Origin: Marinicella algicola
GTDB taxonomy: Bacteria > Pseudomonadota > Gammaproteobacteria > Xanthomonadales > Marinicellaceae
Length of the DNA: 64,000 nucleotides
Assembly: GCF_028401385.1 (NCBI RefSeq)
Contig: NZ_JAQOMR010000001.1
Coordinates: 2,730,501 to 2,794,500 of the forward strand
Direction: 5' to 3'
The notes under the pieces were generated by a model, which saw nothing but the letters and a program-made list of their open reading frames with translations, had not been told where the DNA came from and did no database searches. A program made the translations under genes and the position numbers. Shown in pieces: positions 30,418 through 52,592 of the stretch. How positions within the stretch are numbered: position 1 is the stretch's first letter; every line of letters starts with the position of its first letter.

Positions 30418-31335
30418 ATGATGAAGACGCCGATCCGGATGACGTTCAAGGTCGCCTACGACGCGCTCTATCACTTCAGCGAGGATGACGGCTGGGCCAT
30501 GGCCAGCCATGTCGCGCTTTCGACCCTGCTGGCGCTGTTTCCCTTCCTGATCTTCGGCACCACGCTTGCCGGTTTTCTTGGTGCCGACGAATTCGCCAAT
30601 GTCGCCATCAACTTCATCGTCGGAGCCTGGCCGGAAGCGATTGCCGAGCCGGTTGCGAACCAGATCCGCGAGGTTCTGACGGTACCGCGTGGCGGGCTTT
30701 TGACCGTTTCGGTGCTGGCGGCGGCCTATTTCGCCTCCAACGGAGTTGAGGCCGTCCGGCTGTCACTCAACCGTGCCTACCGGGTTGAGGAAACGCGGAC
30801 ATGGTGGTGGCTCAGAATCCGCAGTCTGGGGTTTGTGCTTCTGGCATCGATCATCTTTGCCTTTCTCAGCATCATGTTCGTGGTGGTGCCGGTCGCACTA
30901 CACTTCGCCGAGCGCTGGTTTCCCTGGCTGGAAGAAGCCCTCGAAGTGCTGTCCAACGCCCGCCTGTTCGGCACATTCCTGTTTTTGATGTTCGGGCTCG
31001 TTATTGCCCATCTGTTTCTGGCGGCCGGTCGCCGCCGGCTTGTCGATGTGCTACCGGGCGTCATTCTGACGCTGGTGGTCTGGTCGCTGTTTGCATCGGG
31101 CTTCGCCTATTATCTCGGCACTTTCGCGCAGTACAGCGCCACCTATGCCGGTCTTGCGACGCCGATGATCCTGCTGGTGTTTCTCTATTCGATCGGCGTG
31201 ATCCTGCTTTTGGGGGCGGAGGTGAATGCCGCTCTTTTGAAATACAAGGTCATCAAACACGCCCCGTGGAGCCGCCACCATGCCCGCGCGGCAAAGCATT
31301 CAGAAACCGCAAAGGACCCGAATATCGGCGGGTGA
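30418..31335 (+). CDS. YihY/UPF0761 family inner membrane protein
   Basis: A 305-residue protein with about six hydrophobic segments. It has the family pattern EDDGWAMASHVALSTLLALFPFL near the start and YAGLATPMILLVFLYSIGVILLLGAEVNA near the end (YihY/BrkB-like). It is an inner membrane protein of uncertain function. The start is at tandem ATGs (30418/30421) after a GGGAG. The last 36 bases overlap the 3' end of gluQ on the other strand. Confidence 0.88.
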   Translation: MMKTPIRMTFKVAYDALYHFSEDDGWAMASHVALSTLLALFPFLIFGTTLAGFLGADEFANVAINFIVGAWPEAIAEPVANQIREVLTVPRGGLLTVSVLAAAYFASNGVEAVRLSLNRAYRVEETRTWWWLRIRSLGFVLLASIIFAFLSIMFVVVPVALHFAERWFPWLEEALEVLSNARLFGTFLFLMFGLVIAHLFLAAGRRRLVDVLPGVILTLVVWSLFASGFAYYLGTFAQYSATYAGLATPMILLVFLYSIGVILLLGAEVNAALLKYKVIKHAPWSRHHARAAKHSETAKDPNIGG

Positions 31336-32177
31336 CACGCCGCTAGCGCGCAGTTCGGCAAGTGCCGTGTCCCGGTTCGATTTGGAAAGCTTGCGCCCGT
31401 CATCGCCCAGCATCAACCTGTGGTGGTGATAGACGGGCGCGGGCAAGCCAAGAAGCTCCTGTAGTAGCCGCTGGACAGAGGTTGCGTGGTAAAGATCGAT
31501 GCCGCGCACGACATGGGTCACTCCCTGTGCGGCATCGTCAGTGACAACCGACAGATGATAGCTTGAAGGCGCATCCGAGCGCGACAGCACGATGTCGCCC
31601 CAAACGTTCGGTTCGGCTTCTATGCCGACAACACCGTCGCCGGTTTGTTCCCGCCAGAAAAGCGGCCTGCCAACAGCCTTGATCGCCGCCTCCATGTCGA
31701 GCCGCCAGGCATGCCGCATGCCCGAACCCAGCAACTCCTGTCGCCGCAGTAAATCCAGCCGCCGATCGCGATCGGGATAGAGCGGCGCGCCATCCGGATC
31801 GCGGGGCCATGCCCTCCCTGCCCTTCGCTTTCGCCGACATGCCTTTTCACTTCGCTGCGGGTCATGAAGGCCGGATAAGCGAGCGCGCGGTCGATCAGGC
31901 TTTGCAGCATGGACTGGTAGTCGGCGAAATGCTCCGACTGGCGAAAAACAGTCCCGTCAAAGCTGACGCCGAGCCATGTAAGGTCTTCAACAACACCTGC
32001 CTCCAGCTCCGGTGTACAGCGGGCGCGGTCGATATCCTCGACCCTGAGCAGCAGCCTGCCATCAACCGCTTGTGCCCGCTGCTGGTTTTCAAGCGCCGAA
32101 AGCGCATGGCCCAGATGAAGCCGGCCGTTCGGGCTCGGGGCAAAGCGGAAAACGGGTCGAGCAATGTTCAAATTCAT
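31300..32177 (-). CDS. gluQ: Glutamyl-Q tRNA(Asp) synthetase
   Basis: This enzyme activates glutamate and attaches it to queuosine at position 34 of tRNA-Asp. FRFAPSPNGRLHLGHA is the HIGH-type motif, RVEDID follows, and KLSKSN is the KMSKS-type motif. The tRNA anticodon-binding domain of true GluRS is absent, as expected for GluQ. One base missing in the GGGG run near 31803 breaks the frame; the repaired protein is about 293 residues. Confidence 0.88.
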
Positions 32178-32981: not shown

Positions 32982-33538
32982 TTGACGATTGCAGTCTCGC
33001 CGCAGGCCTTGCCGGCACTCGTGCTGAATGCTGATTACAGGCCACTGAGCTATTACCCCTTGTCGCTATGGTCCTGGCAGGACACGGTCAAGGCCGTCTT
33101 CCTTGATCGTGTGAACATCATCGCCGAGTATGATCAGGCTGTGTCCTCGCCCAGCTTTTCCATGCGGCTGCCAAGCGTTGTCTGTCTGAAAACCTATATC
33201 AAGCCTTCACGTAACCCGGCCTTTACCCGTTTCAACGTATTTCTTCGGGACCGGTTTCAGTGCCAGTATTGCGGCACCCATGAAGAACTGACCTTCGACC
33301 ATGTGATCCCGCGCTGCCGCGGCGGCCAGACCACCTGGGAGAACGTGGTTGCCGCCTGCTCGCCCTGCAATCTAAAAAAGGTTCGCGCCTTCCCAAACAG
33401 GCCAGCATGATCCCCGCCCACAAGCCCTTTCAGCCGACTGTGCAGGACCTCCACAACAACGGCCGCGCCTTCCCGCCGAACTATCTGCACGAAAGCTGGC
33501 TCGACTATCTCTACTGGGACAGCGAGCTGGAGCCGTGA
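32982..33538 (+). CDS. HNH endonuclease (conserved alphaproteobacterial type)
   Basis: An HNH nuclease of about 185 residues beginning TTG after AGGAG. It has the zinc and active-site pattern [22 protein letters not shown]...[10 protein letters not shown]. The frame breaks at TCTAAAAAAGG near 33376; with one base restored it continues [14 protein letters not shown] to [18 protein letters not shown], the normal end of this family. The gene's 3' end lies 18 bases before a Tn7-like element and may be its attachment site. Confidence 0.85.
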
Positions 33539-33551
33539 GCCACAGCCACCC

Positions 33552-33624
33552 CTGTTTGTGTAAATGCACCCATAAAAGTCACCAAATGGCGGGTTTTGGT
33601 TCCGATATGAAGCATCGGATTCAC
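33552..33624 (+). repeat. 73-bp direct repeat, copy 1 (CTGTT target duplication plus left end)
   Basis: This 73-bp sequence is identical to 40654-40726. It consists of CTGTT (33552-33556) followed by 68 bp of a transposon left end starting TGTGTAAATGCACC. Subterminal sites are GCACCCATAAAAGTCAC and CCGATATGAAGCATCGGATT. Confidence 0.9.
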
Positions 33625-33817
33625 CGACCGGGTGGCATGCGTTGAGTATTGCGACTGGAGGGAAGGTTGCTTGGGATCTATTTTCCCTCCGTTTTTTGGA
33701 GAACACGAGGATGATTCCAGTGCGCCAGCTACTCCGCCGGAATGCGATCCTCGCTGCGCGGCAGCTGAGTGTTGGAACTCCACAACGTGAGGCCCCCAAG
33801 GCTTGTTCGTCTGCAGC
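33625..33817. other. Element interior without a gene
   Basis: Between the left end and the cargo fragment I see no supported coding region. GGGAAGGTTGC/GCTTGGG near 33660 and an imperfect AT-rich stretch near 33685-33705 are the only features. Confidence 0.4.
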
Positions 33818-34399
33818 CTATTTCCTGAACAGATAGATCCGAATACCGTCGCCGAAGACGCCCTTGACCTTGCTCCAAGACGATATGATTTTCCGTGACT
33901 TCAACCATGTTACGAAATCGACGTTTACCTGTGTGTTTGCAAGTCTCGGCGCCCCCAACCCGGTTTGATCTCAGGAAGCGGTGAGGGCATTGACTGCAGG
34001 ATGTCCTGCACTTGCTCGACGTCGAACATCATGTGGAACCGGTTCAGCAGCGAGATTTGAGTTGCGGCGGGGCGGGAGCCCAATATCACAGCACGTACGG
34101 CATCGGCGTCAAGGTTGTCGATCTTGGTTCCCGTGCGAACCAGTATTTCGCCGACGAGCACAGCTCGGGCGCGTAAGCCCGTGAAGATGCCAAGGTCCAT
34201 CGTTGCCAGAATTCTGAGCCGGTTCCCGTCGCCGATGTCGGCTTCCAGCAGCTTCTGCATGAAATCATCGTCCAGGTCGCATTCGTCCTGCACCTCTAGA
34301 AATTCGTCTATGTTGTTCTTAACGAAGGCTACACCCAGAGCGGGGCTGTCTGCTAGTCGGGACAAATTCTCGGCGGAGAAGACCACCAGCTCTCGGTTA
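33818..34399 (-). pseudogene. 3' fragment of a large YobI-like P-loop NTPase (cargo)
   Basis: The fragment reads HNRELVVFSAENLSRLADSP into FMQKLLEADIGDGNRLRILA and ILQSMPSPLPEIKPGWG. With one base restored in the GGGGG run near 33950 it continues RLANTQVNVDFVTWLKSRK and IISSWSKVKGVF and stops at 33818. The order (a PYSEIA-like motif, then an N-x-x-x-N helix, then ISS) resembles the C-terminus of YobI-type NTPases of about 1,200 residues, which occur in defence-rich loci. The N-terminal 85 percent is missing, cut exactly at the IS21 boundary (34400). The family call is tentative. Confidence 0.45.
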
Positions 34400-34522
34400 T
34401 GAGAACGGCGGTGCAAAAGTCGGCCACGAAAGCGGCGGAATAATCTCGTCCGCGGGCGGAGTAAAATCCGGCCACCTATCTTCCTTCTGCAATGAGCGCA
34501 GGAGGGACAGAGGATTTACACC

Positions 34523-36874
<2,352 letters not shown>

Positions 36875-37077
36875 AACCCTTCAGAAAATCGCTACGCAGG
36901 TATGAGGCCCCCGCTCGGGCTACGCCCTCCCGCGGGCCTCATACCTGCGCCCGAGGTGGCCGACTTTTGCTCCGCCCCGTGGCCGGTTTTTACACCGCCG
37001 TTGACACCCCTCGCAATCGTTCAAATGACGCCCAAGCAGAAGCAGCGATGGAGGCTGGTAACTGCTCGAAACAATAA

Positions 37078-38008
37078 GAGCCCGATTTAAAAGTTGTTGA
37101 GTGATATCAGAAGGATGTGATTCAACCACCTCTGCCAAGAACGTGGAGGATCGCATGCCCTGGACTGATATCACCCGCCTGCAGCATAACCGGGATCGCC
37201 TTCGCTATCCAACCGATTTGACGGACCGTGAGTGGGCTGTAATTGCTCCACTGATACCGCTGGCCAAGCCCGGCGGGCGGCCACGGAAAACGAATATGAG
37301 GGAAGTGGTGAACGCGATCCTTTATATTGCGGGCAGCGGCAGTCAATGGCGGGCTCTGCCGAAGGACTTCCCTCCGGTCTCCACGGTGCGAGGCTATTTC
37401 TATGGCTGGCGCGACATCGGCCTTTGGCAGACCATCAATCATCTGCTCGTCTGCGCTACGCGCGAACTGGAGGGGCGCGAGGCCTCGCCCACAGCCGGTG
37501 TCATCGACAGCCAGAGTGTCAAGACCACCGAAAGCGGCGGGGTTTCGGGCTACGACGCCGGCAAGAAGATCAAGGGCCGCAAGCGCCACATCATCACCGA
37601 TACGATCGGGCTGATGCTGTTCGTGCTTGTCCATGCTGCCGATATCCAGGACCGCGACGGTGCGCCCGATGTCCTGAAAGCCATCCGCTACCGTTTCCCC
37701 TGGTTGCGCCATGTCTTCGCAGATGGCGGCTATGCCGGGCAGAAGTTGCGAAAAGCGCTGCGCGGATGCGGCCAATGGAACCTTGAAATCATCAAGCGCT
37801 CCGACATAGCGAAAGGCTTTGAGGTTCTGCCCCGCCGATGGGTGGTGGAGCGCACCTTCGGCTGGTTCGGACGATGCCGTCGGTTGGCCAAAGATTGGGA
37901 AAAGTCCATCGCAAGCGCCACAGCATGGGTCAACATCGCCAGCATCAGGGTGATGACCAGACGCCTCGCACGATATTGTTTCCCATCATGAACTTTTGAA
38001 TCCGGCTC
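37078..38008 (+). mobile_element. IS5-family insertion sequence
   Basis: Terminal inverted repeats GAGCCCGATTTAAAAGTT (37078) and, from the right, GAGCCGGATTCAAAAGTT (38008) are flanked by a 3-bp duplication TAA (37075-37077 and 38009-38011). Length 931 bp and one transposase gene fit an IS5-family copy. It is inserted into the tniB remnant. Confidence 0.92.
37155..37991 (+). CDS. IS5-family transposase
   Basis: An intact DDE transposase of about 278 residues starting MPWTDITRLQHNRDRLRYPT. DDE-region motifs include AGVIDSQSVKTTESGG (first D), VFADGGYAG (second D) and RRWVVERTFGWFGRCRRLAK (third acidic residue with the Y-R-K-like spacing). Nothing suggests inactivation, so this is the most likely still-mobile piece in the island. 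Confidence 0.92.
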   Translation: MPWTDITRLQHNRDRLRYPTDLTDREWAVIAPLIPLAKPGGRPRKTNMREVVNAILYIAGSGSQWRALPKDFPPVSTVRGYFYGWRDIGLWQTINHLLVCATRELEGREASPTAGVIDSQSVKTTESGGVSGYDAGKKIKGRKRHIITDTIGLMLFVLVHAADIQDRDGAPDVLKAIRYRFPWLRHVFADGGYAGQKLRKALRGCGQWNLEIIKRSDIAKGFEVLPRRWVVERTFGWFGRCRRLAKDWEKSIASATAWVNIASIRVMTRRLARYCFPS

Positions 38009-38011
38009 TAA

Positions 38012-38577
38012 GAAGCAAGTCCGAGCCGGTAAATCTGTTCCTGAAGACCCTGTTGCAGGACGGGGGCGGCGTATGCCTGATCGTCATCGGCACGGAAAAA
38101 CTGCGGGATTTCATTTATGATATGCCGGAAAATGAAGAGCTGGCCGGCCGGCTTCTTGACTTTCGGCTGGATCCGTTTTCGCGGAAACAGGCCATTGACC
38201 TGATAGCTCTTGCAGTAAGCAAATATGCAGAAAGTGCCCAGCTGAAGCTAGCGCGCAGCATTACCCGCGACGTCTATTTTCATGATCGGATTTATGACGG
38301 ATGTCGAGGCAGCTATGGTCGTTGCATGCGCCTGATCGCAACGTCGGTAATACAGGCGTTCGAACAAGGGGCTTCCTCGCTGGAACTTGCCGACTTCGAG
38401 GCCGTCTTCGATCTTCAATTCCTGCATTTCAACTCAGAAAACCCTTTCAGGGCCGACTATCAACCAGGCTCGGTGACTTCCAGTTCCGTTTCAGATTTAA
38501 CGCAGTTGTCCGGAGACATCGATGATGGCAGCAGCCCTCCCAAAACGCCGGGCAGGAAGCGGAGGGTCAAGAAATGA
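38012..38577 (+). pseudogene. tniB: tniB/tnsC-like AAA+ transposition regulator, 3' fragment
   Basis: The frame TCC GAG CCG GTA onward encodes SEPVNLFLKTLLQDGGGVCL, IVIGTEKLRDFIYDMPENEE and RLLDFRLDPFSRKQ. This is the C-terminal half of a TniB/TnsC ATPase (sensor and lid region). The Walker A and B part is lost; only 68 bases remain between IS21 and the IS5 copy (37007-37074). It ends inside the start of tniQ (56-bp overlap). In intact elements this ATPase links the TniQ-bound target to the transposase. Confidence 0.75.
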
Positions 38578-40498
38578 CGCTCCCCGGTTGGAACCGCAAC
38601 TGCCCTTTTATGACGACGAGCTCGCGCAAGGCTATCTTGCGCGGAGCGGCCAGTTTCATACTGGCGCCAGTTTATCGCAATTTCGCGGCTACTGGGATAT
38701 TGGGGTAAAGGATATCCGCGACGGAACCGAAGATTTAGTACAAGCCTTATCGGCATTGTCCGGCGTTGAAGCCGATCATATTCGGTATAACACTTTGGTT
38801 GCAAAACCTGATGGCAATTTCACGTTGCGCGGGGAAACCTTTAACCTTCCGTTTGTTCGGCGTGGGTCGGTAACCGCCTGTCTTGAGTGTTTGGCTGACG
38901 ACCATTCACAGGCAGGCTGGAACCCGGGTTCTCGAAGGTTTCGGTGGCAATGGCTGCTGAGACCCGTTGTGTGCTGTGCGCTGCACCAAACCCAGCTCGT
39001 TGAGTTCCGCCTCAAAGACTGCCTCGATCTTTTCGATGTCGAGCAGTTGCTCGCGCTAAATGACTTTGAGCCCGGCGTCATTGCAACGTCCGTCGACAGA
39101 AGTCCCGGCCTTCTGCAACAGTACGTCTCCAGGCGGTTCTCCGCGACTGACAAGTGCGAAGATTGGCTGGGCTCTCAGACTATCTCCGGTGTTGTCAAGG
39201 CATCCGAAATGCTCGGGGCTCTTTTGGCGGACGGTCCTTCTGCGCCGATCAAGGAGTATGTGACTTCCGACTGGGCGCGGGTCGGGGATGTCGGCTTCAA
39301 AACTTACTCGGCAGGAACCGAGGCCATCCTGACCGAGTTCAAGCGACTGTGCATCGATTCCGGATGCAGTAGCGGCCGCGCGGGCCCTCAAGCAGCATAC
39401 GGTTATTTCTTCAGGTGGCTGAAGAAGCGAAACATGGTCGACGGCATGGAGCCACTGCGGAGTATCCTCAGGACCGCCATAGTGGAAAACTTCGCCCTTG
39501 ACGCAGGTGAGGTCGTGCTCGGAGAGACATTACCAGTCCGGCGGATGCACTCTGCCAACTCACTTGCGAGCGCAACCGGTATATCAAAAAGCAGGATTTC
39601 CATGCTGATGCGCAAAGCCGGCATGCTCCCGGCCACAGCCAAAGGTGCCTCTCTCAACCGCTGGGCATTCCCGGCAGATGCAGCGGAAAAGGTGATCGCT
39701 AGAACTCAGGAGGCGGTAAGCTTGCGGCAGGTCCGAAAGATTCTCGGATGCAGCGCAACGCAGGCTGAAAGATTGGCGCATTCGGGACTTATCAGTCCGA
39801 TCATTCCTGTAACAGAGGGACAGCATGGGATCCGCGCAGGAGGCTACGTGAAGGAGGAACTGGAGCAATTCCTCGCGAATATATGCAATAGCTGCGGCAA
39901 AATAGATGACGAAGTCGAAGGTTATCGCTCGCTGTGGGGCGTAACTTGCGGAAGGTCATCTACAGAACAAATCTTGGAATTTCAACTAAAAGGGGAATTT
40001 AGGGACACCAAGCTCATAAAAGGCATAAATAGAATTGATCACCTGCGCTTTAATACATCTGAGGTGAAAGCTGTATTAGAGGCGCTTGACCCGGATCATA
40101 CGATTTCAGCGAGCGAAGTGGCACTTATACTAGGAGTTGTGTCCTCTACGCCGCACCGGCTGGTTTCTCCAGAGCATGGCGGCCCCTGGATGCATGAGGT
40201 TGATCAAGCTGAATATCGGCAACGGAAGGGCAAGCTCCGGTTTTCACGCATCGAACTTCAGAAGTTTCAAGAGCGCTACATGACGGCGAGTGCGATAGGC
40301 AGGTTGCTTGGCATCTCGCACGTGGAGGCCAAGAAACTGATGACGAATACGGGAATTCTTCCGATTGCTGATCCTGTTTGGATGGGAGCGTGGCTCTACA
40401 AGCGAAAGGACGTGTTGCGCCTCATCGATAATCTGGATGAAACCGCTTTCCCTACCTCGGAGCTAAAAGGCGCTGCACGCGAGTGGCCAAATCGATGA
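38522..40498 (+). CDS. tniQ: TniQ/TnsD-like target selector, long form
   Basis: A 658-residue intact protein. The N-terminal TniQ domain begins LPFYDDELAQGYLARSGQFH and includes a zinc-binding set (CLECLADD near residue 120, then WLLRPVVCCALHQTQL). The remaining 450 residues are a series of DNA-binding-like helix-turn-helix units (ATGISKSRISMLMRKAGMLP, SLRQVRKILGCSATQAERLA, ISASEVALILGVVSSTPHRL, SAIGRLLGISHVEAKKLMTN). A long, HTH-rich C-terminus is typical of TnsD-type proteins that recognise a fixed attachment site. This fits the insertion next to the HNH gene. Confidence 0.82.
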   Translation: MMAAALPKRRAGSGGSRNDAPRLEPQLPFYDDELAQGYLARSGQFHTGASLSQFRGYWDIGVKDIRDGTEDLVQALSALSGVEADHIRYNTLVAKPDGNFTLRGETFNLPFVRRGSVTACLECLADDHSQAGWNPGSRRFRWQWLLRPVVCCALHQTQLVEFRLKDCLDLFDVEQLLALNDFEPGVIATSVDRSPGLLQQYVSRRFSATDKCEDWLGSQTISGVVKASEMLGALLADGPSAPIKEYVTSDWARVGDVGFKTYSAGTEAILTEFKRLCIDSGCSSGRAGPQAAYGYFFRWLKKRNMVDGMEPLRSILRTAIVENFALDAGEVVLGETLPVRRMHSANSLASATGISKSRISMLMRKAGMLPATAKGASLNRWAFPADAAEKVIARTQEAVSLRQVRKILGCSATQAERLAHSGLISPIIPVTEGQHGIRAGGYVKEELEQFLANICNSCGKIDDEVEGYRSLWGVTCGRSSTEQILEFQLKGEFRDTKLIKGINRIDHLRFNTSEVKAVLEALDPDHTISASEVALILGVVSSTPHRLVSPEHGGPWMHEVDQAEYRQRKGKLRFSRIELQKFQERYMTASAIGRLLGISHVEAKKLMTNTGILPIADPVWMGAWLYKRKDVLRLIDNLDETAFPTSELKGAAREWPNR

Positions 40499-40653
40499 TC
40501 GCTCGACCAGAAAGCTGCGAAGGGCCGAATTTGGTGAATCAGATGCTTTCATCCGGTGAATCTGATGATATCTACAAAAACTACAGCCATACCAGAATGC
40601 AATAAAAACAATCACATAGCGCGCTGAAATGTGCTTTTATGGTGCTTTTAACA
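40499..40653. other. Right end of the Tn7-like element
   Basis: It contains two copies of GGTGAATCWGATG (40533-40545 and 40555-40567) and the terminal TTTTATGGTGCTTTTAACA ending at 40653. These are mirror images of the left-end sites, as expected for transposase-binding sites. No gene is present. Confidence 0.7.
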
Positions 40654-40726
40654 CTGTTTGTGTAAATGCACCCATAAAAGTCACCAAATGGCGGGTTTTG
40701 GTTCCGATATGAAGCATCGGATTCAC
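40654..40726 (+). repeat. 73-bp direct repeat, copy 2 (left end of an older tandem element)
   Basis: Identical to 33552-33624: CTGTT followed by the same left-end sequence. Because it follows the right end of the first element and its CTGTT duplication, it is best read as the left end of an earlier insertion at the same site, now deleted beyond position 40726. Confidence 0.8.
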
Positions 40727-40817
40727 AAACCGGCCCGGATCAGGACTATGCTGCGCGAAAATATCGACCCTCAGACAACGGGATCGATGTATCAGCCAGC
40801 AAGCAACATTCTCTCAT

Positions 40818-42205
40818 CCTAACACTACTTTGGCATTCTTGAGCTGAGCGTTTTTACGATTCCCATGACGGGTTTTCAATGATTCATAGGAGGTCGTTTT
40901 TGGAGGGACCGGCCATGGACAGGAACTGGCAAGATGACCTGGAGCGCTGGCTGACGCCATTCTCCTCTGCGCTGCGGCACAAGGCGCGGGTGCGGATGGG
41001 CCCGGCCTATGTTGCCGGGTTGATAGGCCCCGGGATCGCAAGAACACTCATCCGATTGCGGCGCGAGACGGCGGCGCAAGCTACAACCAGCTTCATCATT
41101 TCATCGGCAGTGGCGTGCGGGATGCAGCCCGCTCGAAGCGGCGCTTCTCGCTGAAGCCGATAAGTTGGCCGGCGGTGATCGTTCGTGGTTGATCATCGAT
41201 GGTGAGCCGGTTCAGTGAATCATTCACCCGACAAACGCATTGCCGAAGAAGGGCCGGCATTCTGTTGGCGTTGCGCCACAATATGCCTCCGCACTTGGGA
41301 AGACCGCCAATCGCTGGTCTCGGTGACACTTGCGGCGCGCGAGGCGCCGGTCATGGTGGGGCTGCGGCTGTTTCTGCCCGAGACATGGACGAACGATCCA
41401 GAGCGCATGATGCGGGCCGGCGTGCCGAAGGTTCGTCAGACTGCTCTGACAAAGCCGGAAATCGCCATCGAGGAGATCGACCGTGTCATTGCCTCCGGCG
41501 TGCGCTCCGGTTGTGTCCTTGCCGATGCAGGATATGGATCAAGCAGCCCGTTCCGTCAGGCCCTGAGCGAGCGCGGCCTCAACTGGACGGTGGGCCGGTC
41601 ACGGCGTCAGAATGTCTATCCGGGCGATGTCGCCCTGGTCTTTCCGGTCGCCAGAGCCGGAAACCGCCGCAAATACCATATTCCCGACCGGCCAGCGATT
41701 TCCGCCGAGACGATGTTGACCGGGGAGAAATGGCGAAAAGTCAGTTGGCGGCAAGGCACCAAGGGGCGATTGTCCTGTCACTTCGCCACTGCCCGCGTCG
41801 GGCTCGCCGAAGGCCACAGACACCGGATGCTCGATGGCCGCGTTCAGGCCATGCCGGGCGATGCCTCCATCAAGATGCTGGCCGCTGCCATCAAGGCCAG
41901 ATGGATCTGTGAGCAGGCGCACCTGCAACTCAAGGAAGAGCTTGGGCTCGACCACTTCGAAGGCAGATCATGGGCATCGCGACATGCGCTGATGACGATG
42001 ATCGCCTACGCCTTTCCCCAGTCCCGCCGCCTCAAAGCAGAGCGACGGAAAAAAGGAATCACAGGTCCGCCGCCAAAACCAACCATGCCGGCCATCAGAC
42101 AGGCCATTCTTGATCTCTTTGCACGGCCTCCGCCTATGCGATCCCCACACCGTGCAAGGATCATCGCCGAACCCGTAAAACCTAAAATCCCAAAGTAGTG
42201 TTAGG
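40818..42205 (+). mobile_element. IS701-like insertion sequence (degenerate)
   Basis: Perfect 16-bp terminal inverted repeats CCTAACACTACTTTGG (40818) and CCAAAGTAGTGTTAGG (42205) bound a 1,388-bp element with one transposase gene. No convincing target duplication is visible (CTCAT on the left, CCGTT on the right). Confidence 0.88.
40915..42198 (+). pseudogene. IS701-like DDE transposase, broken
   Basis: It starts MDRNWQDDLERWLTPFSSAL after GGAGGG, as IS701-like transposases do. It has several frameshifts between 41030 and 41280 and then runs on as [28 protein letters not shown] and ARWICEQAHLQLKEELGLDH. About 30 residues normally found between the GHRHRMLDGRVQAMPG region and ASIKMLAAAIKARW are missing. 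The gene is therefore decayed beyond a single sequence error. Confidence 0.85.
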
Positions 42206-42435
42206 CCGTTTGTCTTTGTATTTCCGCAACGAAAACCGAAGTGTTTCTCTACTTTCGTTTCAATTTGTCTCTTCACGTCGACAGCAGAAACGGACGGAAT
42301 GACACGCAAATGGATTGACACGAAAACGTATGCACACGAATACTTATAATTGCAGAAATGCAAACTCATTGTAGTGAGCCAGCAGGGGTGGTCGGCTGCA
42401 TCAATTGAAGCGCGTTACGCTAGGGGAACAATAAA
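42206..42435. repeat. Upstream region of the permease with three 16-bp tandem repeats
   Basis: Three units at 42295-42310, 42311-42326 and 42327-42342 share the pattern GGATTGACACGAAAA (CGGAATGACACGCAAA, TGGATTGACACGAAAA, CGTATGCACACGAATA). They could be regulator or transposase-binding sites left by a mobile element. The rest of this stretch is AT-rich with no gene. Confidence 0.5.
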
Positions 42436-44042
42436 ATGGCAATGCGACGCGAAATTGGCCTTGTCGGTCTTACCTTTGTCGCCGTCGGTGGCGTTCTGGG
42501 ATCTGGGTGGCTGTTTGCGCCACTCGATACAGCGCAACTAGCGGGGCCAGCCTCGATTATCTCATGGTTGATCGGCGCGGTGGCGATGCTGCTCATCGCC
42601 TTGACCTATGCTGAAAACTCAACCCTGTTTCCAATCGCAGGTGGTATTGCTCGAATTCCGCAGTTTTCCCACGGGCGCCTTCTGGCGCTGGCCATGGGCT
42701 GGAGCGCCTGGGTGGGCTACTGCACCACCGCGCCGATCGAAGTGAAAGCCTCGCTCGGCTATGCCTCGTCCTATCTGCCGTGGCTGACCGACAGCGCCGG
42801 TGGCCTGACCTTTTCGGGGTACGGCGCCGCAGCGGTCTTCCTTGCGGTGCTGACGGTGGTGAACGTTTTCGGCGTTGCCTGGTTTGCGCGGATCAACACC
42901 ACGATGACCTGGTTCAAGCTGATTGTTCCGGTGATTTTCATCGTGGTCGTCGTTGCATCAAGATTTGAGCCTTCGAATTTCACATCAGCCGGCGGCTTTG
43001 CGCCTTTCGGTGTTCCCGGCATTTTCGCAGCGGTTTCCACCGGCGGTGTCGTATTCGCCTTTATTGGCTTCCGGCACGCTATTGACCTGGCCGGTGAGGT
43101 CAAAAATGCGCAAAAGTGATCCCGATGGCGCTGATCCTCTCCGTGCTGATCTGCCTTGCCGTTTACGTTGGTCTGCAGATCGCGTTTGTCGGTGCCATCG
43201 ATCCGGCTTCGCTTGCAAAGGGGTGGCAGACGATCGAGGCCAATCATGAACTCGGCCCGCTTGGCGCGCTTGCTACATCGATCGGTGTTCTCTGGCTGCT
43301 GAGCATGCTGAATGTCGCCGCCGTGATTTCACCGGCCGGCAGCGGCCTCGTCTCGGTCGGCTCCAATGCCCGTCTTGCGCTTGCGATGTCGAACAACGGC
43401 GTATTTCCGCGCCTTTTCGCCAAGCTGAACGAGTTTGGCGTACCGCTCTGGGCGCTGATCCTCAATTACTTCGTCGCGCTTTTCATGCTGATTGTCCTGC
43501 CGTTTCAGGAAATCCTCGCGCTCAACAGTGCGGCCGTGGTCCTGTCCTTCATTGCCGGTCCGGTGTCGATGGTCGCTTTCCGCTATCTTGCGCCAAACGC
43601 TCACCGTCCGTTCGTAGTGCCGGCAGCAGGGGTTATCGGAGCGCTGGCTTTCATGATCGCAACACTGATGATCTATTGGTCCGGCTGGAGCACGATCTGG
43701 GTTCTGCTCGCACTGCTGGCCGTGGGGGCGGCGCTTTTCTTCGTCAGGTTTGCGGTGATCGGGCGCGAAGACCTCGAGCCGATGAGTGCAGTATGGTTCG
43801 GCGTCTACATGGCCGGTGTTGCCATCATCTCTTATCTCGGCGGCTATGGCGGCGGCCTTGGTGTCATTCCGCATCCAGTCGACTCGATCCTGGCCGCGCT
43901 GTTTTCGATCGCGGTTTTCCTGATGGCTGTGCGTGGCCGCGTCTCGAAGGAAGCGTTCGACCGGTTCCGCAGGGAACAGCACGATATCGAGCTACAGGAA
44001 TATGACGGTGACGATGTCGAGGACGTGATGTCGCGCGACTGA
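42436..44042 (+). CDS. APC-family amino acid permease
   Basis: About 536 residues with twelve or more hydrophobic segments. It begins MAMRREIGLVGLTFVAVGGV with the APC glycine-rich helix 1 (GGVLGSGWLFAP). VVFAFIGFRHAIDLAGEVKN is the conserved helix 6 region. The frame breaks at GCGCAAAAGTG near 43112 by one missing base and resumes VIPMALILSVLICLAV. Distribution of segments resembles proton-coupled aspartate/basic amino acid permeases, but the substrate is not determined. It follows the mobile-element island directly. Confidence 0.85.
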
Positions 44043-44068
44043 CACCACTGCATTAACACAGACAAATG

Positions 44069-44098
44069 CCGCTCTTCCTTGCCGGGAAGGGCGACCTT
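44069..44098 (+). terminator. Probable terminator of the permease gene
   Basis: CGCTCTTCC and GGGAAGGGCG form an imperfect hairpin with a TTGCC loop, followed by ACCTTTGTTGTTT. It is located just after the permease stop and before the convergent apaG. Confidence 0.55.
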
Positions 44099-44112
44099 TG
44101 TTGTTTCGCGCT

Positions 44113-44505
44113 TCAGTGGTGCGACCGGTCTTCGTAAGGCGAGTCCAGCGAAAACGGCGGGATCACCACCCGCAACAGCCGGTTGTCGCCGGTGCGCAGG
44201 ACATAATGGCCGACCATGATGCCGGAAGGCGTGTCTAGCGGGGCTGCCGACTGGTAGGCAAAGCGTCCGCCGCTCTCAAGCACCGGTTGCTTGCCGGCGA
44301 CGCCGGGGCCGTTGACGGTCTCGACAATACCGTCGGCGTTGGTGATGGTCCAGTGGCGGGCAATGATCTGGACCTCGATCGCCCCGTGATTGACGATCTC
44401 GATATCGTAGGCCCAGACAAACTGGTCATCCGCCGGGGAGGAATGCTCGTCCAGAAAACGGGTCTCCACCTTGATCTCTATGTCGTCCGTCGTTTCGCTG
44501 TCCAC
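44113..44505 (-). CDS. apaG: ApaG family protein
   Basis: A 130-residue beta-sandwich protein with the family pattern VETRFLDEHSSPADDQFVWA, IIARHWTITNADG, VNGPGVAGKQPVL and GIMVGHYVL. ApaG is linked to Co2+/Mg2+ homeostasis and Ap4A metabolism, though its activity is not settled. It is intact and lies downstream of metZ in the same orientation. Confidence 0.92.
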   Translation of the reverse strand: MDSETTDDIEIKVETRFLDEHSSPADDQFVWAYDIEIVNHGAIEVQIIARHWTITNADGIVETVNGPGVAGKQPVLESGGRFAYQSAAPLDTPSGIMVGHYVLRTGDNRLLRVVIPPFSLDSPYEDRSHH

Positions 44506-44579
44506 TGGCCGGCTCCGGAAATGTCCTGCCCGGCCGGTGTCGGTGGTCGCCGGTCGGTCCTGATCCGCAATTCTGACGC

Positions 44580-45762
44580 TTATGCCGGCAGTTTTGCAAG
44601 TGCCGCTGCAAAATCGTCGATCAGATCGTCGCTATCCTCGATACCGGCCGAAAAACGGATCGTGCCGCCGGTAATACCAAGTTCGGCGCGCGCCTCGTCG
44701 GAGAGGTTCTTGTGGGTTGTCGTCGCCGGATGGGTGATCAGGCTCTTGGCATCGCCGAGATTGTTGGAAATCGAGACGATGTCCAGCGCATCCTGAAGCG
44801 CAAAGGCCGCATCCTTGCCGCCCTTCAGTTCGAAGGCGATCAGCGACGATCCGGCTTTCATCTGCTTTTTGATGATGTCAGCCTGCGGGTGATCGGCGCG
44901 GCCGGGATAGATCACGCGGGCGACCTGTTTCTGATCGGCAAGGAAATCCGCAATTCTTGCGGCACTTTCGGTCTGCTGGCGGACGCGCAACGGAAAAGTT
45001 TCCAGCCCCTTCATCAACAGCCAGGCGTTGAAGGGCGACAGCGCAGGGCCGGTGTGGCGGAAATAGTCCTGCAGTTCTTCCTCAACCCATTCCTTGGACG
45101 ACAGGACAACGCCTCCGAGGCAGCGGCCCTGACCATCGATATGCTTGGTTGCCGAGTAGACGACGACATCCGCACCGAGTTCGAGCGGTTTCTGGTAGAG
45201 CGCGGTGGCGAATACGTTGTCGACCACCAAACGGGCACCGGCCTGATGGGCAAGCCGCGCGACACCGGCGATATCGATCACTTCGAGTGTCGGGTTGGTC
45301 GGGCTTTCAATGAAGAACAATTTTGTGTTCGGGCGGATTGCGGCCTCGAAATTGGCAAGCGCGCGACCGTCGACCAGTGTGCATTCAATGCCATATTTCG
45401 GTGCAAGCGTTTCGACCACCCAGCGGCAGGAGCCGAACAGCGCGCGCTGCCACGATATGGTCACCGGCCTTCAGTTGGCATAGGATTGCGGCGGAAACGG
45501 CGGCCATACCGGAAGCGGTGGCGCGCGCATCTTCCGCGCCTTCAAGCGCGCACATACGTTGTTCGAACATGGCGTTGGTCGGGCTGCCATAGCGGGCATA
45601 GATAAAGCCCTCATCCTCGCCCTTGAAGCGGGCCTCGGCGGCGGCAGAATTTTCGTAGAGAAAGCCCTGCGTCATGAAGATGCCCTCCGACATCTCGCCA
45701 TACTGCGAACGCAGGCTGCCTGCGTGAACGAGCTTGGTTTGCGGACGCCAGGACTGCTTCAT
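44580..45762 (-). CDS. metZ: O-succinylhomoserine sulfhydrylase
   Basis: A Cys/Met-metabolism PLP enzyme that makes homocysteine from O-succinylhomoserine and sulfide. It has RYGSPTNAMFEQRM, FFIESPTNPTLEVIDI, VVDNVFATALYQKPL and the PLP lysine in YSATKHIDGQGR. One base is missing near 45447, where VAARA should lead into LFGSCRWVVETLAPKYG; the repaired protein is about 395 residues. A SAM-II riboswitch and an intrinsic terminator lie upstream, placing it under methionine/SAM feedback. Confidence 0.93.
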
Positions 45763-45777
45763 CTTTTCTCTCCAAAC

Positions 45778-45805
45778 AAAAAAACCGGTCGCGAAGGGAC
45801 CGGTT
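45778..45805 (-). terminator. Intrinsic terminator of the metZ leader
   Basis: Reading the minus strand, ACCGGTC and GACCGGT form a 7-bp stem with a CCTTCGC loop, followed by seven T. It lies between the SAM-II aptamer and the metZ start, so it is the likely expression platform. Confidence 0.8.
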
Positions 45806-45810
45806 ACCCG

Positions 45811-45866
45811 GCCTTTTAGCTATTTGTTTAACGTGGCTGCAAGCCGACCGGCCAAATCACCACAGG
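45811..45866 (-). ncRNA. SAM-II riboswitch upstream of metZ
   Basis: The minus-strand leader contains the SAM-II consensus: GTGGTGATTTG, then the P1 loop region CGGCTTGCAGCCACGTTAAA, then a short loop and GCTAAAA, which pairs back as the H-type pseudoknot. SAM-II elements are known upstream of metA, metZ and metX in alphaproteobacteria. They bind S-adenosylmethionine and switch expression off. Confidence 0.93.
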
Positions 45867-45874
45867 GATAATTC

Positions 45875-45903
45875 GGCATATTCCCTATCAGCGCTTGCGT
45901 CAA
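45875..45903 (-). promoter_or_regulatory. Probable promoter of metZ leader
   Basis: On the minus strand TTGACG (45903-45898) is followed after 17 bases by TATGCC (45880-45875), a sigma70-type arrangement just upstream of the riboswitch. It shares the intergenic region with the divergent dcd gene. Confidence 0.5.
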
Positions 45904-45943
45904 TTCTGAAACATTGGTTTTGTCGGCCAACAGGAGCAAAACC

Positions 45944-47031
45944 ATGTCAAATAAGCCCGGAATACTGGCCGATCACGCCATTGCCGCCCTGCTGGAGCAG
46001 GGCGATCTGGTTGCCGCAAAGCCACTCGACCACGACCAGATCCAGCCCGCCAGCCTCGATCTGAGGCTCGGGGTGAAGGCCTATCGTGTGCGGGCAAGTT
46101 TCCTGCCCGGCCCGCGAAATCATGTGGCCGACAAGCTGTCGCATCTCAGCATGCACGAGATCGATCTGACGCAGGGGCGGTGCTGGAAACTGGCTGTGTC
46201 TATATCGTGGAGTTGATGGAAGCCCTCAGGCTGGGCGAAGCGATGGCAGCCTCGACCAACCCCAAAAGCTCGACCGGAAGGCTGGATATTTTCACGCGCG
46301 TGATCACCGATTTCGCTCAGGAGTTTGATATCATTCCGGCGGGTTACGAAGGGCCGCTTTATCTGGAGATTTCGCCGCGCACCTTCCCGGTGATCGTGCG
46401 GCAGGGCTCCCGGCTTTCGCAGATCCGTTTCCGTTCTGGCCATGCCGTTCTCGCCGAAGATGCGCTGATGGCACTGCACCGCGCCGAAACGCTGGTTGCC
46501 AGCGACATGCCCAATATCTCCGATGGCGGGATTGCGCTTTCCATCGATCTGGAGGGTGAGGGGCTGGTCGGTTATCGCGGCAAGCACCACACCGGCGTCA
46601 TCGATGTCGACCGCAAGGCTGGCTACGACATTCTCGATTTCTGGGAGCCGATCGAGGGACGCGGCAAGGGCGAACTGATCCTCGATCCGGATGAATTCTA
46701 CATCCTGGTTTCGCGCGAGGCCGTGCATGTACCGCCGCTCTATGCCGCCGAGATGACGCCGTTCGATCCGCTGGTCGGTGAATTCCGCGTGCACTATGCA
46801 GGCTTTTTCGACCCAGGTTTCGGCCATGCGCAAGCCGGCGGCAGGGGCGCGCGTGCCGTACTGGAGGTCAGAAGCCACGAAGTGCCCTTCATTCTCGAAC
46901 ACAGCCAGATCGTGGGTCGTCTGGTCTACGAGCACATGATGGATCCGCCGACCGCGCTTTATGGTTCAGGTCTCGGCTCGAACTATCAGGCGCAGGGGCT
47001 TAAGCTCTCCAAGCATTTCCGGGTCGGGTAG
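45944..47031 (+). CDS. dcd: 2'-Deoxycytidine 5'-triphosphate deaminase (long form)
   Basis: About 363 residues. The N-terminal dUTPase-like fold begins MSNKPGILADHAIAALLEQG with IQPASLDLRLGVKAYRVRAS. After one restored base in GGGG near 46178 it continues VLETGCVYIVELMEALRL, SSTGRLDIFTRVITD and EISPRTFPVIVRQGSRLSQ. The long two-domain form is usual in Rhizobiales. It deaminates dCTP to dUTP for thymidylate synthesis. CAGGAGC precedes the start. Confidence 0.9.
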
Positions 47032-47044
47032 GAACAGTCCAGAA

Positions 47045-47072
47045 AAACCGGCCACGAAGCGACCGGCTTTTC
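47045..47072 (+). terminator. Terminator after dcd
   Basis: ACCGGCC and GACCGGC flanking a short loop ACGAAGC form a GC-rich hairpin followed by TTTTC, 14 bases after the dcd stop. Confidence 0.6.
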
Positions 47073-47104
47073 GATGGCATTCGGAATTGCCGGAACGGCT
47101 TCGT

Positions 47105-47443
47105 TCAGTAACCCGGCGGCAACACGGCCAGTTCGTTGCAGGTCTCTTCATTGCCGACCAGCGTGTCTCGAATTTGCGCCTGCTGGCGTGCCCGTAGACG
47201 TGCGTCGTCGATATCGGACTGATCGGCGCCCATCGCCCTCGCCTTGGCATAGATTTCCTCGGATGCATCCTTCAGCTTGGCGTCGCCACGCAGGCTGATG
47301 TAGCTCTCGCACCTCTGTGCTCCAAGCTCTGCACGTGCGCCCTGATCGAGCAGTTCCTGAAGGGACGTCTCCGGTGGTGCCGTCTGACAGCCGGCGAGCG
47401 CTACCACAGTCATAAATGCCGCGATTCGGATCAGATTGATCAT
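47105..47443 (-). CDS. Putative lipoprotein
   Basis: A 112-residue protein whose N-terminus MINLIRIAAFMTVVALAGC is a lipoprotein signal with lipobox LAGC, so the mature protein would begin at Cys19. The rest is helical and charged (LQELLDQGARAELGAQRCES, DDARLRARQQAQIRD). The family is unknown; similar small lipoproteins are common in this order. Convergent to dcd. Confidence 0.75.
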   Translation of the reverse strand: MINLIRIAAFMTVVALAGCQTAPPETSLQELLDQGARAELGAQRCESYISLRGDAKLKDASEEIYAKARAMGADQSDIDDARLRARQQAQIRDTLVGNEETCNELAVLPPGY

Positions 47444-47588
47444 GATTCATTCTCCCAATTGGTTCTTGCCGCTCATAATAGCGGAAAATGCCGACGTCGG
47501 GTCGGCTTTCTTGCGCCGGAGCGAAAACCGGGACGATGAAAGATACGTGTTTTCGCGGACTTGAAGTCGGTGTTGTATCAATTAAAAG

Positions 47589-47620
47589 AAAAGGGCCCGG
47601 TTTTGCATGACCGGGCCTTC
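47589..47620 (-). terminator. Terminator of the iron-binding protein gene
   Basis: GGCCCGG (47611-47617 read on the minus strand) pairs with CCGGGCC (47594-47600) around a 10-base loop and is followed on the minus strand by CTTTTCTTTTAAT. It lies about 30 bases after the gene's stop. Confidence 0.8.
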
Positions 47621-47648
47621 TGTGTTTATCAAAGTAGAACTCGGTTAC

Positions 47649-48680
47649 TTACGGGCCGTCGTTGAAACCGACCTTGTCGACGAGTTCGGATGCTTCACGC
47701 CGGTGGTCGGCGATTTCGGCAAGTGACAGGTCGTCGGGGTGGATTTCGCCGAAGGATTGAACAATCTCGGAAGCTTCTGCGCCCGGCATCACAGGGTATT
47801 CAAAGACCTGTTCGGCATAGATTTCCTGCGCTTCGGACGAGGCGAGGAATTCCATCAGCGTCAAGGCGTTTTCCGGATGCGGCGCGTGTTTTGCCATCGC
47901 CATGCCGGAGACATTGACATGGGTGCCGCGGCCATCGGCGTTGGGAAACAGGATGTCGATCGCGGCTGCCCACTCCTTCTGCTCGGGCTCTTTGTCGTTG
48001 GTCATCATCAGCCCGACATAATAGGTGTTACCAAGCGCAATGTCGCATTCGCCCGACATGATGGCCTTGGCCTGGCCCCGGTCGTTGCCGTTCGGGCGAC
48101 GGGCGAGATTGGCCTTGAGGCCTTTGAGCCATTCCTCCGTGTATTCGGCGCCGTGATGGGCGATCATCGAGGCGATGAGCGCAATATTATAGGGGTGTTG
48201 ACCGTCGCGAATGCAAATCGCGCCTTTCCATTTCGGATCTGCCAGTTCCTCATAGGTGATCGGCACCTGACCGATACGATCTTTCGATGCGTAGACCACA
48301 CGACCGCGCTTCGTCAGCGCAAACCAGTTGCCGTCGGGGTCACGAAACTGCGCGGGAATATCGGTGTTGATGATCTCGCTTTCGACCGGCTGCGTAACTT
48401 CTGCCTCCTTGGCTTCGGTCAATCGCCCGATATCGACGGTGAGGATCACATCGACGGGCGAATTGGCACCCTCCGCCTTGATCCGTTCGACAAGGCCGGT
48501 GTCCAGAAACAGCACATTGGTATTGATACCGGTCTCGGCCTCGAAAGCCTCAAGCAGCGGAGCGATCAGTTCCGGCTGACGGTAGGAATAGATGTTGACA
48601 TCCTCAGCCGACGCCGGGGCGCAGACGCCGGCGATGCCGAGTGCCAGAAAAGAACCGGCAAGTGCTTTGAGCCTTGTCAT
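47649..48680 (-). CDS. Ferric-iron ABC transporter substrate-binding protein (FbpA/FutA-like)
   Basis: A 343-residue periplasmic protein. The signal peptide MTRLKALAGSFLALGIAGVC ends near PASA-EDVNIYSYRQPELI. The body matches the FbpA class: FLDTGLVERIKAEGANSPVD, NWFALTKRGRVVYASK, RPNGNDRGQAKAIMSGECDI and GNTYYVGLM, where the paired tyrosines are the expected iron ligands. GGAGAATTCA precedes the ATG. Permease and ATPase genes do not follow; a terminator does, so it is an orphan binding protein. It is divergent from rirA, which suggests iron control. Confidence 0.88.
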   Translation of the reverse strand: MTRLKALAGSFLALGIAGVCAPASAEDVNIYSYRQPELIAPLLEAFEAETGINTNVLFLDTGLVERIKAEGANSPVDVILTVDIGRLTEAKEAEVTQPVESEIINTDIPAQFRDPDGNWFALTKRGRVVYASKDRIGQVPITYEELADPKWKGAICIRDGQHPYNIALIASMIAHHGAEYTEEWLKGLKANLARRPNGNDRGQAKAIMSGECDIALGNTYYVGLMMTNDKEPEQKEWAAAIDILFPNADGRGTHVNVSGMAMAKHAPHPENALTLMEFLASSEAQEIYAEQVFEYPVMPGAEASEIVQSFGEIHPDDLSLAEIADHRREASELVDKVGFNDGP

Positions 48681-48779
48681 TGAATTCTCCATGTGATGCT
48701 TTAACTTGAATTCGTTCATCAGGTATTAGGGCTGTGCTGTCAACCGTGCGCGTTTTAGACTTGAGTGGAAATTTCTTCT

Positions 48780-48796
48780 TTTGGAATTGTTCCAAA
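48780..48796. promoter_or_regulatory. Perfect inverted repeat in the fbpA-rirA intergenic region
   Basis: TTTGGAA (48780-48786) and TTCCAAA (48790-48796) with a 3-base centre form a perfect 17-bp dyad between the divergent iron-binding protein gene and rirA. It is a good candidate operator for control of one or both genes. Confidence 0.5.
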
Positions 48797-48844
48797 GTGA
48801 GAAACGCGCTATAAACATGGAAACATTCTAAAGAGGAAATTGGA

Positions 48845-49312
48845 ATGCGCCTGACAAAGCAGACGAATTATGCGGTACGCATGCTCATGTATTGCGCGGC
48901 CAATGACGGCAGGCTGAGCCGTGTCCCCGAGATCGCAAGGGCTTATGGTGTATCCGAGCTTTTCCTGTTCAAGATTATCCAGCCACTGCACAAGGCCGGG
49001 ATCATGGATACGGTGCGCGGTCGAAATGGTGGGGTTCGCCTCGGTCGCCCGGCATCCGAGATCACGCTTTTCGATGTCGTCTGCGTGACAGAGGAGAATT
49101 TTTCCATGGCTGAGTGTTTTGACGAGGGCAATGATTCGGATTGCCCGCTGGTCGATAGCTGCGGCTTCAACGAGGCGCTCAGAAAGGCGCTGAACGCGTT
49201 TTTCTCGGTGCTCGCTGATTATACGATTGAGGACCTGGTGCGGCGGCGTGTGGATATTTTCAAGCTGCTGAGCATTGAAGGAGGCAAGAAGGTCGAGACC
49301 TCTGCCGCGTAA
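48845..49312 (+). CDS. rirA: Rrf2-family iron regulator RirA
   Basis: A 155-residue Rrf2 protein beginning MRLTKQTNYAVRMLMYCAAN with a winged HTH (RVPEIARAYGVSELFLFKII) and the wing GRNGGVRLGRPA. The three cysteines that hold the iron-sulfur cluster are in ECFDEGNDSDCPLVDSCGF. RirA represses iron-uptake genes when iron is plentiful in rhizobia and relatives. The neighbouring ferric-binding protein is a natural target. Confidence 0.9.
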   Translation: MRLTKQTNYAVRMLMYCAANDGRLSRVPEIARAYGVSELFLFKIIQPLHKAGIMDTVRGRNGGVRLGRPASEITLFDVVCVTEENFSMAECFDEGNDSDCPLVDSCGFNEALRKALNAFFSVLADYTIEDLVRRRVDIFKLLSIEGGKKVETSAA

Positions 49313-49321
49313 AGGCGTTTC

Positions 49322-49341
49322 GCGATCACATTTGTGATCGC
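49322..49341. repeat. Palindrome after rirA
   Basis: GCGATCACA and TGTGATCGC separated by TT form a perfect 20-bp palindrome ten bases after the rirA stop. It resembles an FNR/CRP-type half-site pair, but its position after a gene makes a regulatory role uncertain. Confidence 0.45.
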
Positions 49342-49371
49342 ACAGGCTGATTTGATGATTTTAGATGCAAG

Positions 49372-49398
49372 CGCCGGGATATTTCCCGGCGTTTTTGT
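49372..49398 (+). terminator. Intrinsic terminator of rirA
   Basis: CGCCGGGA (49372-49379) pairs with TCCCGGCG (49384-49391) and is followed by TTTTTGTTG. A classical Rho-independent terminator. Confidence 0.88.
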
Positions 49399-49607
49399 TG
49401 TCCGGCGATCGTCCCCAACGAAGTTTTCCGGTGGCAAATGTGCCTTGTGCTTGTCACTGGAAAGATGTAGCAAAAGGACGCTAACTCGTAACAGCATACG
49501 TGCAAAGCCAGAACGACCTGGCTTCGGGTGGCGACAAGAGGCGGCGAACAGCTGCCCTGTTTGAAAAAGAACACGGAGATGCTCCGTTTCGGGGCAGGGA
49601 GAGAGCC
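49399..49607. other. Intergenic region before the FGGY kinase
   Basis: Some 200 bases with no supported gene. AGGGAGAGAGCC before 49608 is the kinase ribosome binding site, and the region probably holds its promoter. Confidence 0.4.
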
Positions 49608-51239: not shown

Positions 51240-51289
51240 ATGGGGTTGTGCCGGACATTGACGGCGCAAAGGTGAAATGTCGGCTTACA

Positions 51290-51310
51290 GTGCGCCCGTA
51301 AAGGGCGCAC
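51290..51310 (+). terminator. Hairpin between kinase and LacI gene
   Basis: GTGCGCCC (51290-51297) pairs with GGGCGCAC (51303-51310) around a 5-base loop. CTTGCTCTTG follows rather than a pure T-run, so it may be a weak terminator. Confidence 0.55.
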
Positions 51311-51394
51311 CTTGCTCTTGCTGCGGAGATAGCAGCAGCCGGCGTTGAGCGGCACCCTTGTGGAAGACTGCCTGATAGCGGAGAAAAACAGGCT

Positions 51395-52394: not shown

Positions 52395-52423
52395 GGCCTG
52401 CCAAACCCGGTGAAGCGAAGCCG

Positions 52424-52500
52424 CTAGTGGTCCGATTCCAACATTTGGTTCCCCTCGCTGCGACCTCATCAGCAAATGTTGGAATCATAGGGACCACTGG
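52424..52500. repeat. 77-bp palindromic element, unit A
   Basis: The arms are CTAGTGGTCC followed by GATTCCAACATTTG (52424-52447) and, on the other side, CAAATGTTGGAATC followed by GGGACCACTGG (52473-52500). The loop contains GCGACCTCATCAG. A related element in the opposite orientation follows at 52515-52592. The pair fills the space between the convergent LacI and glutamate-synthase-like genes. Confidence 0.75.
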
Positions 52501-52514
52501 CAAGGATATGTTTT

Positions 52515-52592
52515 CTAGTGGAATTTTAGAATTTGACAGTTGACGGATGAGGTCGTTGAAACGGGACTCAAATGCCAAATTCATCCCACTAG
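52515..52592. repeat. 78-bp palindromic element, unit B (diverged inverted copy)
   Basis: Read on the minus strand it starts CTAGTGGGATGAATTT, contains AACGACCTCATCCG in the middle and ends AAATTCCACTAG. This is the same plan and length as unit A. Its outer arm includes the TAG stop codon of the minus-strand gene. Confidence 0.6.

Follow-up and report, generated by a model that had tools for sequence, protein, structure and literature searches.

Within a 64,000-nucleotide stretch of the Marinicella algicola contig NZ_JAQOMR010000001.1 (the whole of which is here called the window), positions 33552 to 40726 hold the remains of a transposon that lies directly behind a gene for an HNH endonuclease and is followed at once by a second copy of its own left end. 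Comparison with other copies makes it very probable, in our judgment, that this transposon belongs to a Tn7-like family whose TnsD-like target selector, TniQ, homes repeatedly to the 3' end of the HNH gene. On sequence grounds, the window copy itself is a decayed Tn7-like relic, recognised through intact relatives in Martelella limonii (M. limonii) and in a second genome of the same family, G674.

Ends and insertion position behind the HNH gene

Comparison of the window with itself yielded an exact direct repeat of 73 bp, composed of CTGTT and a further 68 bp, at 33552-33624 and 40654-40726; in a longer form (33552-33631 and 40654-40733) it spans 80 bp at 98% identity. The first copy opens a tniQ-bearing element with Tn7-like ends, and the second stands directly after the same element: the right end reads ...TTTTAACA, with its last base at 40653, and is followed by CTGTT and then by the second left end, which agrees with the first at 68 of 68 positions (33557-33624 versus 40659-40726). 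An initial annotation had proposed these inverted ends with shared subterminal sites, the CTGTT on both sides, the terminus at 40653, and the identical second left end, all of which are confirmed in the window sequence. The subterminal motif GCACC(C)ATAAAAG, near each tip, is common to both ends. Of GATTCACC, the window has three copies in all, one in the left end and two, in inverted orientation, in the right end; with 1.7 expected from base composition, their number is unremarkable and only their placing is notable. Other left ends read TGTAAATG, and two degraded stubs read TGTAAACG and TGTGAATG, whereas TGTGTAAATG, with an extra TG, is the reading of the two window copies only. TGT...ACA ends with a 5-bp duplication are present in the M. 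limonii element and in both elements of G674; in the window, CTGTT goes with the longer left end, and the duplication may be taken either as CTGTT, the end then being longer by two bases, or else as 7 bp.

Placed by comparison with relatives, the stop codon of the HNH gene lies at 33536-33538, leaving 18 bp to TGTG at 33557 and 20 bp to TGTAAATG at 33559. This bears out the proposed insertion 18 bp after a conserved HNH gene, which has orthologs in 229 of 247 genomes of M. limonii's family, although in the window its frame is broken near 33380, so that the listed open reading frame (ORF) ends at 33410 and the stop matching that of the relatives lies in another frame. The gap between HNH stop and transposon end is 20 bp in the window, 21 bp in M. 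limonii, 21 bp in G674, and 19 bp in a further genome, G715, with the same orientation in all four. Across 33 sequences, conservation remains at 0.84 to 0.94 up to the last HNH codon, compared with a mean of 0.38 to 0.39 in the sequence behind the gene. Because the gap is held at 19 to 21 bp and the coding sequence is conserved to its last codon while the sequence behind it is not, we propose the 3' end of the HNH gene as the sequence recognised by TniQ.

Relatives at the site and readings of the second left end

In M. limonii, an element of 19.6 kb with tnsA, tnsB, tnsC, and tniQ as intact open frames and the duplication CTCGG lies behind the same HNH gene. In G674, an outer element flanked by ATTGT begins 21 bp behind the gene, with its tniQ present in two pieces only, and about 180 bp from its outer end it carries an intact inner element (tnsABC-tniQ) with the duplication GCGGC. 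Beyond the right end of the outer element and its ATTGT lies another end stub, TGTGAATGCACCCATA, whose first three bases are covered by ATTGT; by this junction, the site was hit at least twice in G674, and the inner element is a further insertion close by. The initial annotation had expected different cargo between the same ends, and the two G674 elements do carry different sequence between similar ends. The outer element is a mosaic, with a 388-bp piece of its tniQ 99.2% and its right end 90.2% identical to the inner element, a pattern that suggests the stacked copies have recombined.

Chromosomal identity over the 6 kb ending at the HNH stop is 75.0% (window and M. limonii), 82.3% (window and G674), and 74.9% (M. 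limonii and G674); for the corresponding elements it is 93.7% and 92.5%, measured on the 2.6 kb that the window retains, and 95.2% over 11.0 kb. Since element identity is so far above that of the flanks, the elements arrived at the site independently, and by this measure they are far more recent than the divergence of their hosts. Homing of a TnsD/TniQ-type element, as first suggested for the window, is thus supported by independent copies in M. limonii and G674, in addition to the window copy and a stub in G715.

A search of 394 genomes of M. limonii's family with the first 24 bases of the end, allowing up to three mismatches, returned four sites in three genomes (one in M. limonii, two in G674, one in G715), all four behind the HNH gene, while a reversed-pattern control returned none. 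TniQ was found at E <= 1e-20 in 29 of these genomes, only two of which hold a close one, M. limonii itself and G674 (92%); the TniQ of the other 27 is at most 30% identical. These 27 genomes lend no support to the idea that every TniQ element in the family inserts behind the HNH gene. Both places are listed for 17 of them, and none is known to have its TniQ near the HNH gene, two having both on one contig (at least 158,795 bp apart) and 15 having them on different draft contigs. Beyond the family, TnsB relatives at 52 to 61% identity occur in metagenomes and Rhodobacteraceae genomes (55 to 57% in the latter), so the element family is wider than Martelella. TniQ had no match in phage records, and viral contigs yielded nothing useful; plasmid matches were all below 60% for TniQ, the 20 listed being about 21 to 29% identical, and also below 60% for TnsB, none of them covering 80%.

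In Tn7, as summarized in PMC2918618, TnsD binds the end of glmS, and the element inserts about 20 bp past the stop codon, generating a 5-bp duplication. By analogy with its cut-and-paste steps, we infer that TniQ would bind the HNH gene at its conserved 3' end and recruit TnsC, after which TnsAB would insert the element about 20 bp behind the HNH stop, with the same end towards the gene and a 5-bp duplication. Because the sequence that is read would be left intact by insertion, the site would be reusable; a newer element would come to lie between the gene and the older remains, so that the gene would be followed in turn by a duplication, the element, a duplication, and the old left end, and the second end in the window would be the leftover of an earlier insertion. 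Target immunity normally inhibits repeat insertion in Tn7, according to PMC11406308. All that is left of the older copy is a stub, of 68 bp in the window and 16 bp in G674; immunity may have lapsed because the stub was already short, or the decay may have come later.

Several observations weigh against repeated homing as the whole explanation. Of the four copies of the end in the window genome, two are at the HNH gene; the others lie away from it, on contig C1 at C1:141698-141763 (95% over 66 bp) and C1:3169701-3169749 (84% over 49 bp); targeting may not be absolute, or the stubs may have been moved by rearrangement. The inner element of G674 sits inside the outer one and not at the primary site, and no empty site that could be aligned base by base was present among the loci compared. 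The predicted model of the M. limonii TniQ is of middling confidence (mean predicted local distance difference test score, 72.3; predicted template modeling score, 0.54), its ten best matches have root-mean-square deviations of 6 to 13 Å, and their Z levels may mean only a common helical arrangement; the TniQ profile had no sequence match in PDB. Finally, the two left ends in the window are identical at all 68 positions, including the two extra bases TG seen in no other left end, a picture that duplication explains no less well than two arrivals do.

The last point bears on successive insertion, which the initial annotation had read from the window and for which G674 offers the clearest case; the second end in the window could also stem from local duplication. 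Homing would then hold, and the second left end would have arisen by local duplication or gene conversion, for instance through recombination with a tandem or circular copy, an origin to which we give serious, if less than even, weight. Longer copies of the end elsewhere are 84 to 95% identical to the window ends, and since arrivals from a pool differing by at least 5% would not be expected to be identical, conversion or local duplication was likely involved; the G674 mosaic likewise indicates that copies at the site recombine. Against this, the offset of the G674 junction, where ATTGT overlaps the start of the next stub, fits a new insertion 3 bp away and not a duplication, and the picture in the window would likewise result if a separate insertion had later undergone conversion.

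Were the region behind the HNH gene a general insertion hotspot, or the coincidence due to chance, no selector would be needed. The region is indeed variable: a comparison of six genomes over 12 to 24 kb on the right-hand side of the gene or array shows synteny in none of the 15 pairs, 10 of them sharing nothing and the other five sharing one match each, of 232 to 536 bp at 65 to 73% identity, and half of the end copies in the window genome lie away from the HNH gene. The narrow range of gaps and single orientation in four genomes, the confinement of all four end sites among the 394 genomes to this gene, and the absence of other TniQ elements known near it (with the two places on different draft contigs in 15 of the 17 genomes) nevertheless make such a hotspot highly improbable. 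Least credible of all, and rejected here, is that the 73-bp sequence is native to the HNH 3' region and its likeness to transposon ends coincidental: G715, which has no TniQ hit at E <= 1e-20, does carry about 28 bp of it, but the sequence was absent from the 29 other HNH loci fetched (the best 30 of 229, with M. limonii as the 30th), it sits at element tips with perfect 5-bp duplications once in M. limonii and twice in G674, and the intergenic sequence behind the gene is otherwise unconserved. A tniQ-less relative with the 73-bp sequence had been named at the outset as a sign against insertion; G715 answers to it in a weak form only, and we read its bare stub as decay.

The two distant stubs of the window genome have settings of their own. 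The one at C1:141698 lies between apparently truncated regulator and transporter genes and reads CACA, as does the stub in the window, whereas intact ends read CACC. The other, at C1:3169701, precedes a sugar kinase gene, which in the genome G620 lies about 17 kb behind the HNH gene. No HNH gene was recognised among the ORFs listed beside either stub, where no search was aimed at one.

Content and surroundings of the window copy

Coordinates are collected in Table 1. From the left end through the cargo remnant, the DNA is 94.8% identical to that of M. limonii over 844 bp. In M. limonii, the corresponding cargo protein of 1203 amino acids adjoins the gene-proximal end, and residues 37 to 638, in its N-terminal half, match the defence protein Tmn (PADLOC, 1.4e-70). 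The window copy lacks tnsA, tnsB, and the 5' part of tnsC, so that tniQ and the 3' part of tnsC are all that remains of the transposition genes; the tnsC remnant matched no Pfam family, and the expected start of tniQ at 38574 is out of frame. The IS21-type insertion matches the Pfam families IstB (2.6e-32) and Mu-transpos_C_2 (6.7e-11). The stretch 40727-40818, which takes in the 83 bp between the second left end (about 75 bp) and the third insertion sequence, had no significant match among the loci compared.

Table 1. Features of the HNH gene, the transposon relic, and adjoining sequence in the window
Feature	Position	Strand	Basis or comparison
HNH endonuclease gene, proposed attachment site at 3' end	32982..33538	+	Pfam HNH 1.1e-13
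Target duplication CTGTT, left copy	33552..33556		Matching 5-bp duplications in M. limonii and G674
HNH-proximal ("left") end	33557..33631	+	Sequence comparison with other copies
Cargo-gene remnant	33925..34416	-	Part of C-terminal half of 1203-amino-acid protein
IS21-type insertion sequence, istA and istB remnants	34400..37006 (borders approximate)	+	Pfam; inverted terminal repeats
IS4/IS5-type insertion sequence, TAA on both sides	37078..38008	+	Pfam DDE_Tnp_1 1.9e-37, DUF4096; terminal repeats
tnsC (TniB-like), 3' part	38009..38577	+	DNA 93.7% to M. limonii
tniQ/tnsD-like target selector gene	38522..40498	+	Pfam TniQ 1.6e-14; 90% protein identity to M. limonii TniQ
Distal ("right") end	40499..40653	+	90.5% to M. 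limonii, 91.7% to both G674 right ends
Target duplication CTGTT, right copy	40654..40658		Read from sequence
Second left end, stub without rest of element	40659..40733	+	40659-40726 identical to 33557-33624
Third insertion sequence (DDE_5 transposase), adjoining stub	40817..42207	+	Pfam DDE_5 1.2e-37; terminal repeats

Frame breaks are spread over the region, with genes split over two frames at 31300-32177 (which we take to be gluQRS-like), in HNH (near 33380), in istA (34523-36117) and istB (35985-36874), and in the permease gene (42436-44042); these look like either assembly indel errors or widespread decay. The permease had been considered part of a conserved pair with the HNH gene. It is adjacent to HNH in none of four relatives, and we reject it as a stable or ancestral right neighbour. 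In the three relatives for which the region upstream of the permease was fetched, it adjoins the gene found at 52.6-54.2 kb in the window, and therefore 42.2-52.6 kb (about 10 kb of 42206-54262) appears inverted in the window relative to these genomes. A repeat near 52426-52592 recurs at C1:3153771-3153937 with 92% identity.

The window is syntenic with M. limonii. Among 398 genomes given as the window's order, an HNH ortholog at E <= 1e-40 was found in the window's own genome only. A search of the same genomes with both ends returned that genome and one 24-bp match in G129; it scored few candidates per genome and missed the two other stubs of the window's own. With synteny to Martelella and no HNH ortholog in other genomes of the order, the order grouping of the window genome looks odd.

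Transposition proteins and comparison with known systems

In M. limonii, the intact relative, a TnsA-like endonuclease accompanies a TnsB of DDE type, a gene absent from the window copy. This TnsB is related to that of Tn6677 (phmmer, 8.7e-18) and, more distantly, to that of Tn7 (1.2e-8); D336, D436, and E472, invariant in 11 sequences, are taken as the DDE residues, and no Pfam transposase domain was detected in the protein. Its TnsC matches Pfam TniB at 33 bits (cut-off, 22.4) and had no relevant sequence match in PDB. TniQ exceeds the Pfam TniQ cut-off in both the window and M. limonii, and the predicted model of the latter matches TniQ and TnsD structures. C103, C106, C135, and H138 are invariant in 15 sequences and have the spacing of a zinc finger, while about five successive segments of the C-terminal half weakly match small winged-helix (MerR/excisionase-like) domains. 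The M. limonii TniQ also matched the PADLOC TniQ model listed under I-F; no Cas effector of the kind that marks a CRISPR-associated transposon was detected by PADLOC in four cargo proteins of that element. Four of ten metagenomic TniQ proteins (P0002, P0003, P0005, and P0011, of P0002 to P0011) end in ...FGESDD plus two or three residues; this ending could be the translated GGTGAATCTGATGA repeat of the right end, in which case tniQ genes may run into the transposon end.

Within the literature covered, we did not find the HNH gene as a Tn7-like site: "HNH" occurs 0 times in the main texts of PMC10293859, PMC8649781, and PMC11406308, with supplementary tables and most subscription papers outside this scope. 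More speculatively, and with considerable doubt, one could picture an undescribed family whose TnsD, with about five winged-helix domains in a row, directs it to the HNH gene and whose weak immunity lets elements pile up, the arrays and stubs marking past occupations.

The HNH gene adds a candidate to the attachment genes known for Tn7-like elements, together with a selector whose DNA reading could be mapped, and the intact copies in M. limonii and G674 make homing directly testable in the laboratory. Repeated use of the site, with a short end remaining there, is relevant to the persistence of transposition immunity during the decay of an old element. Among the cargo is a relative of a phage-defence protein.

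By features that can be tested in its intact relative, the element is a new member of the Tn7-like kind, with a target gene that we did not find described in the literature covered. It shares with Tn7 the proteins TnsA, TnsB, and TnsC, a TnsD-like selector with Cys/His zinc-finger spacing, the 5-bp duplication, the single orientation, and insertion about 20 bp after the stop of a conserved gene. In Tn7, too, it is the tnsA side that faces the gene. In contrast to Tn7, the target here is an HNH endonuclease gene, there is one tniQ, sequence similarity is only distant (1.2e-8 for TnsB), and cargo lies between the gene-proximal end and tnsA, as distinct from the layout of Tn7. Transposons of the Tn5053/Tn402 type (TniABQR) are not known to have a TnsA, carry the resolvase TniR, and insert near res sites; with a TnsA-like protein in the intact relative and an HNH gene as its site, the present element does not belong among them. 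Closer are the protein-guided Tn7-like elements with tRNA- or parE-targeting TnsD, whose selectors likewise recognise a site in the chromosome by way of a long C-terminal extension (PMC10293859 and PMC11406308, in whose main texts the HNH gene is not named as a site); here, the C-terminal half shows the weak winged-helix matches. The Tn6022 type, with TniQ and TnsF, also combines TnsA, TnsB, TnsC, and TniQ, as outlined in PMC10293859, but inserts in comM via TnsF, whereas the element described here lies behind, and not in, another gene.

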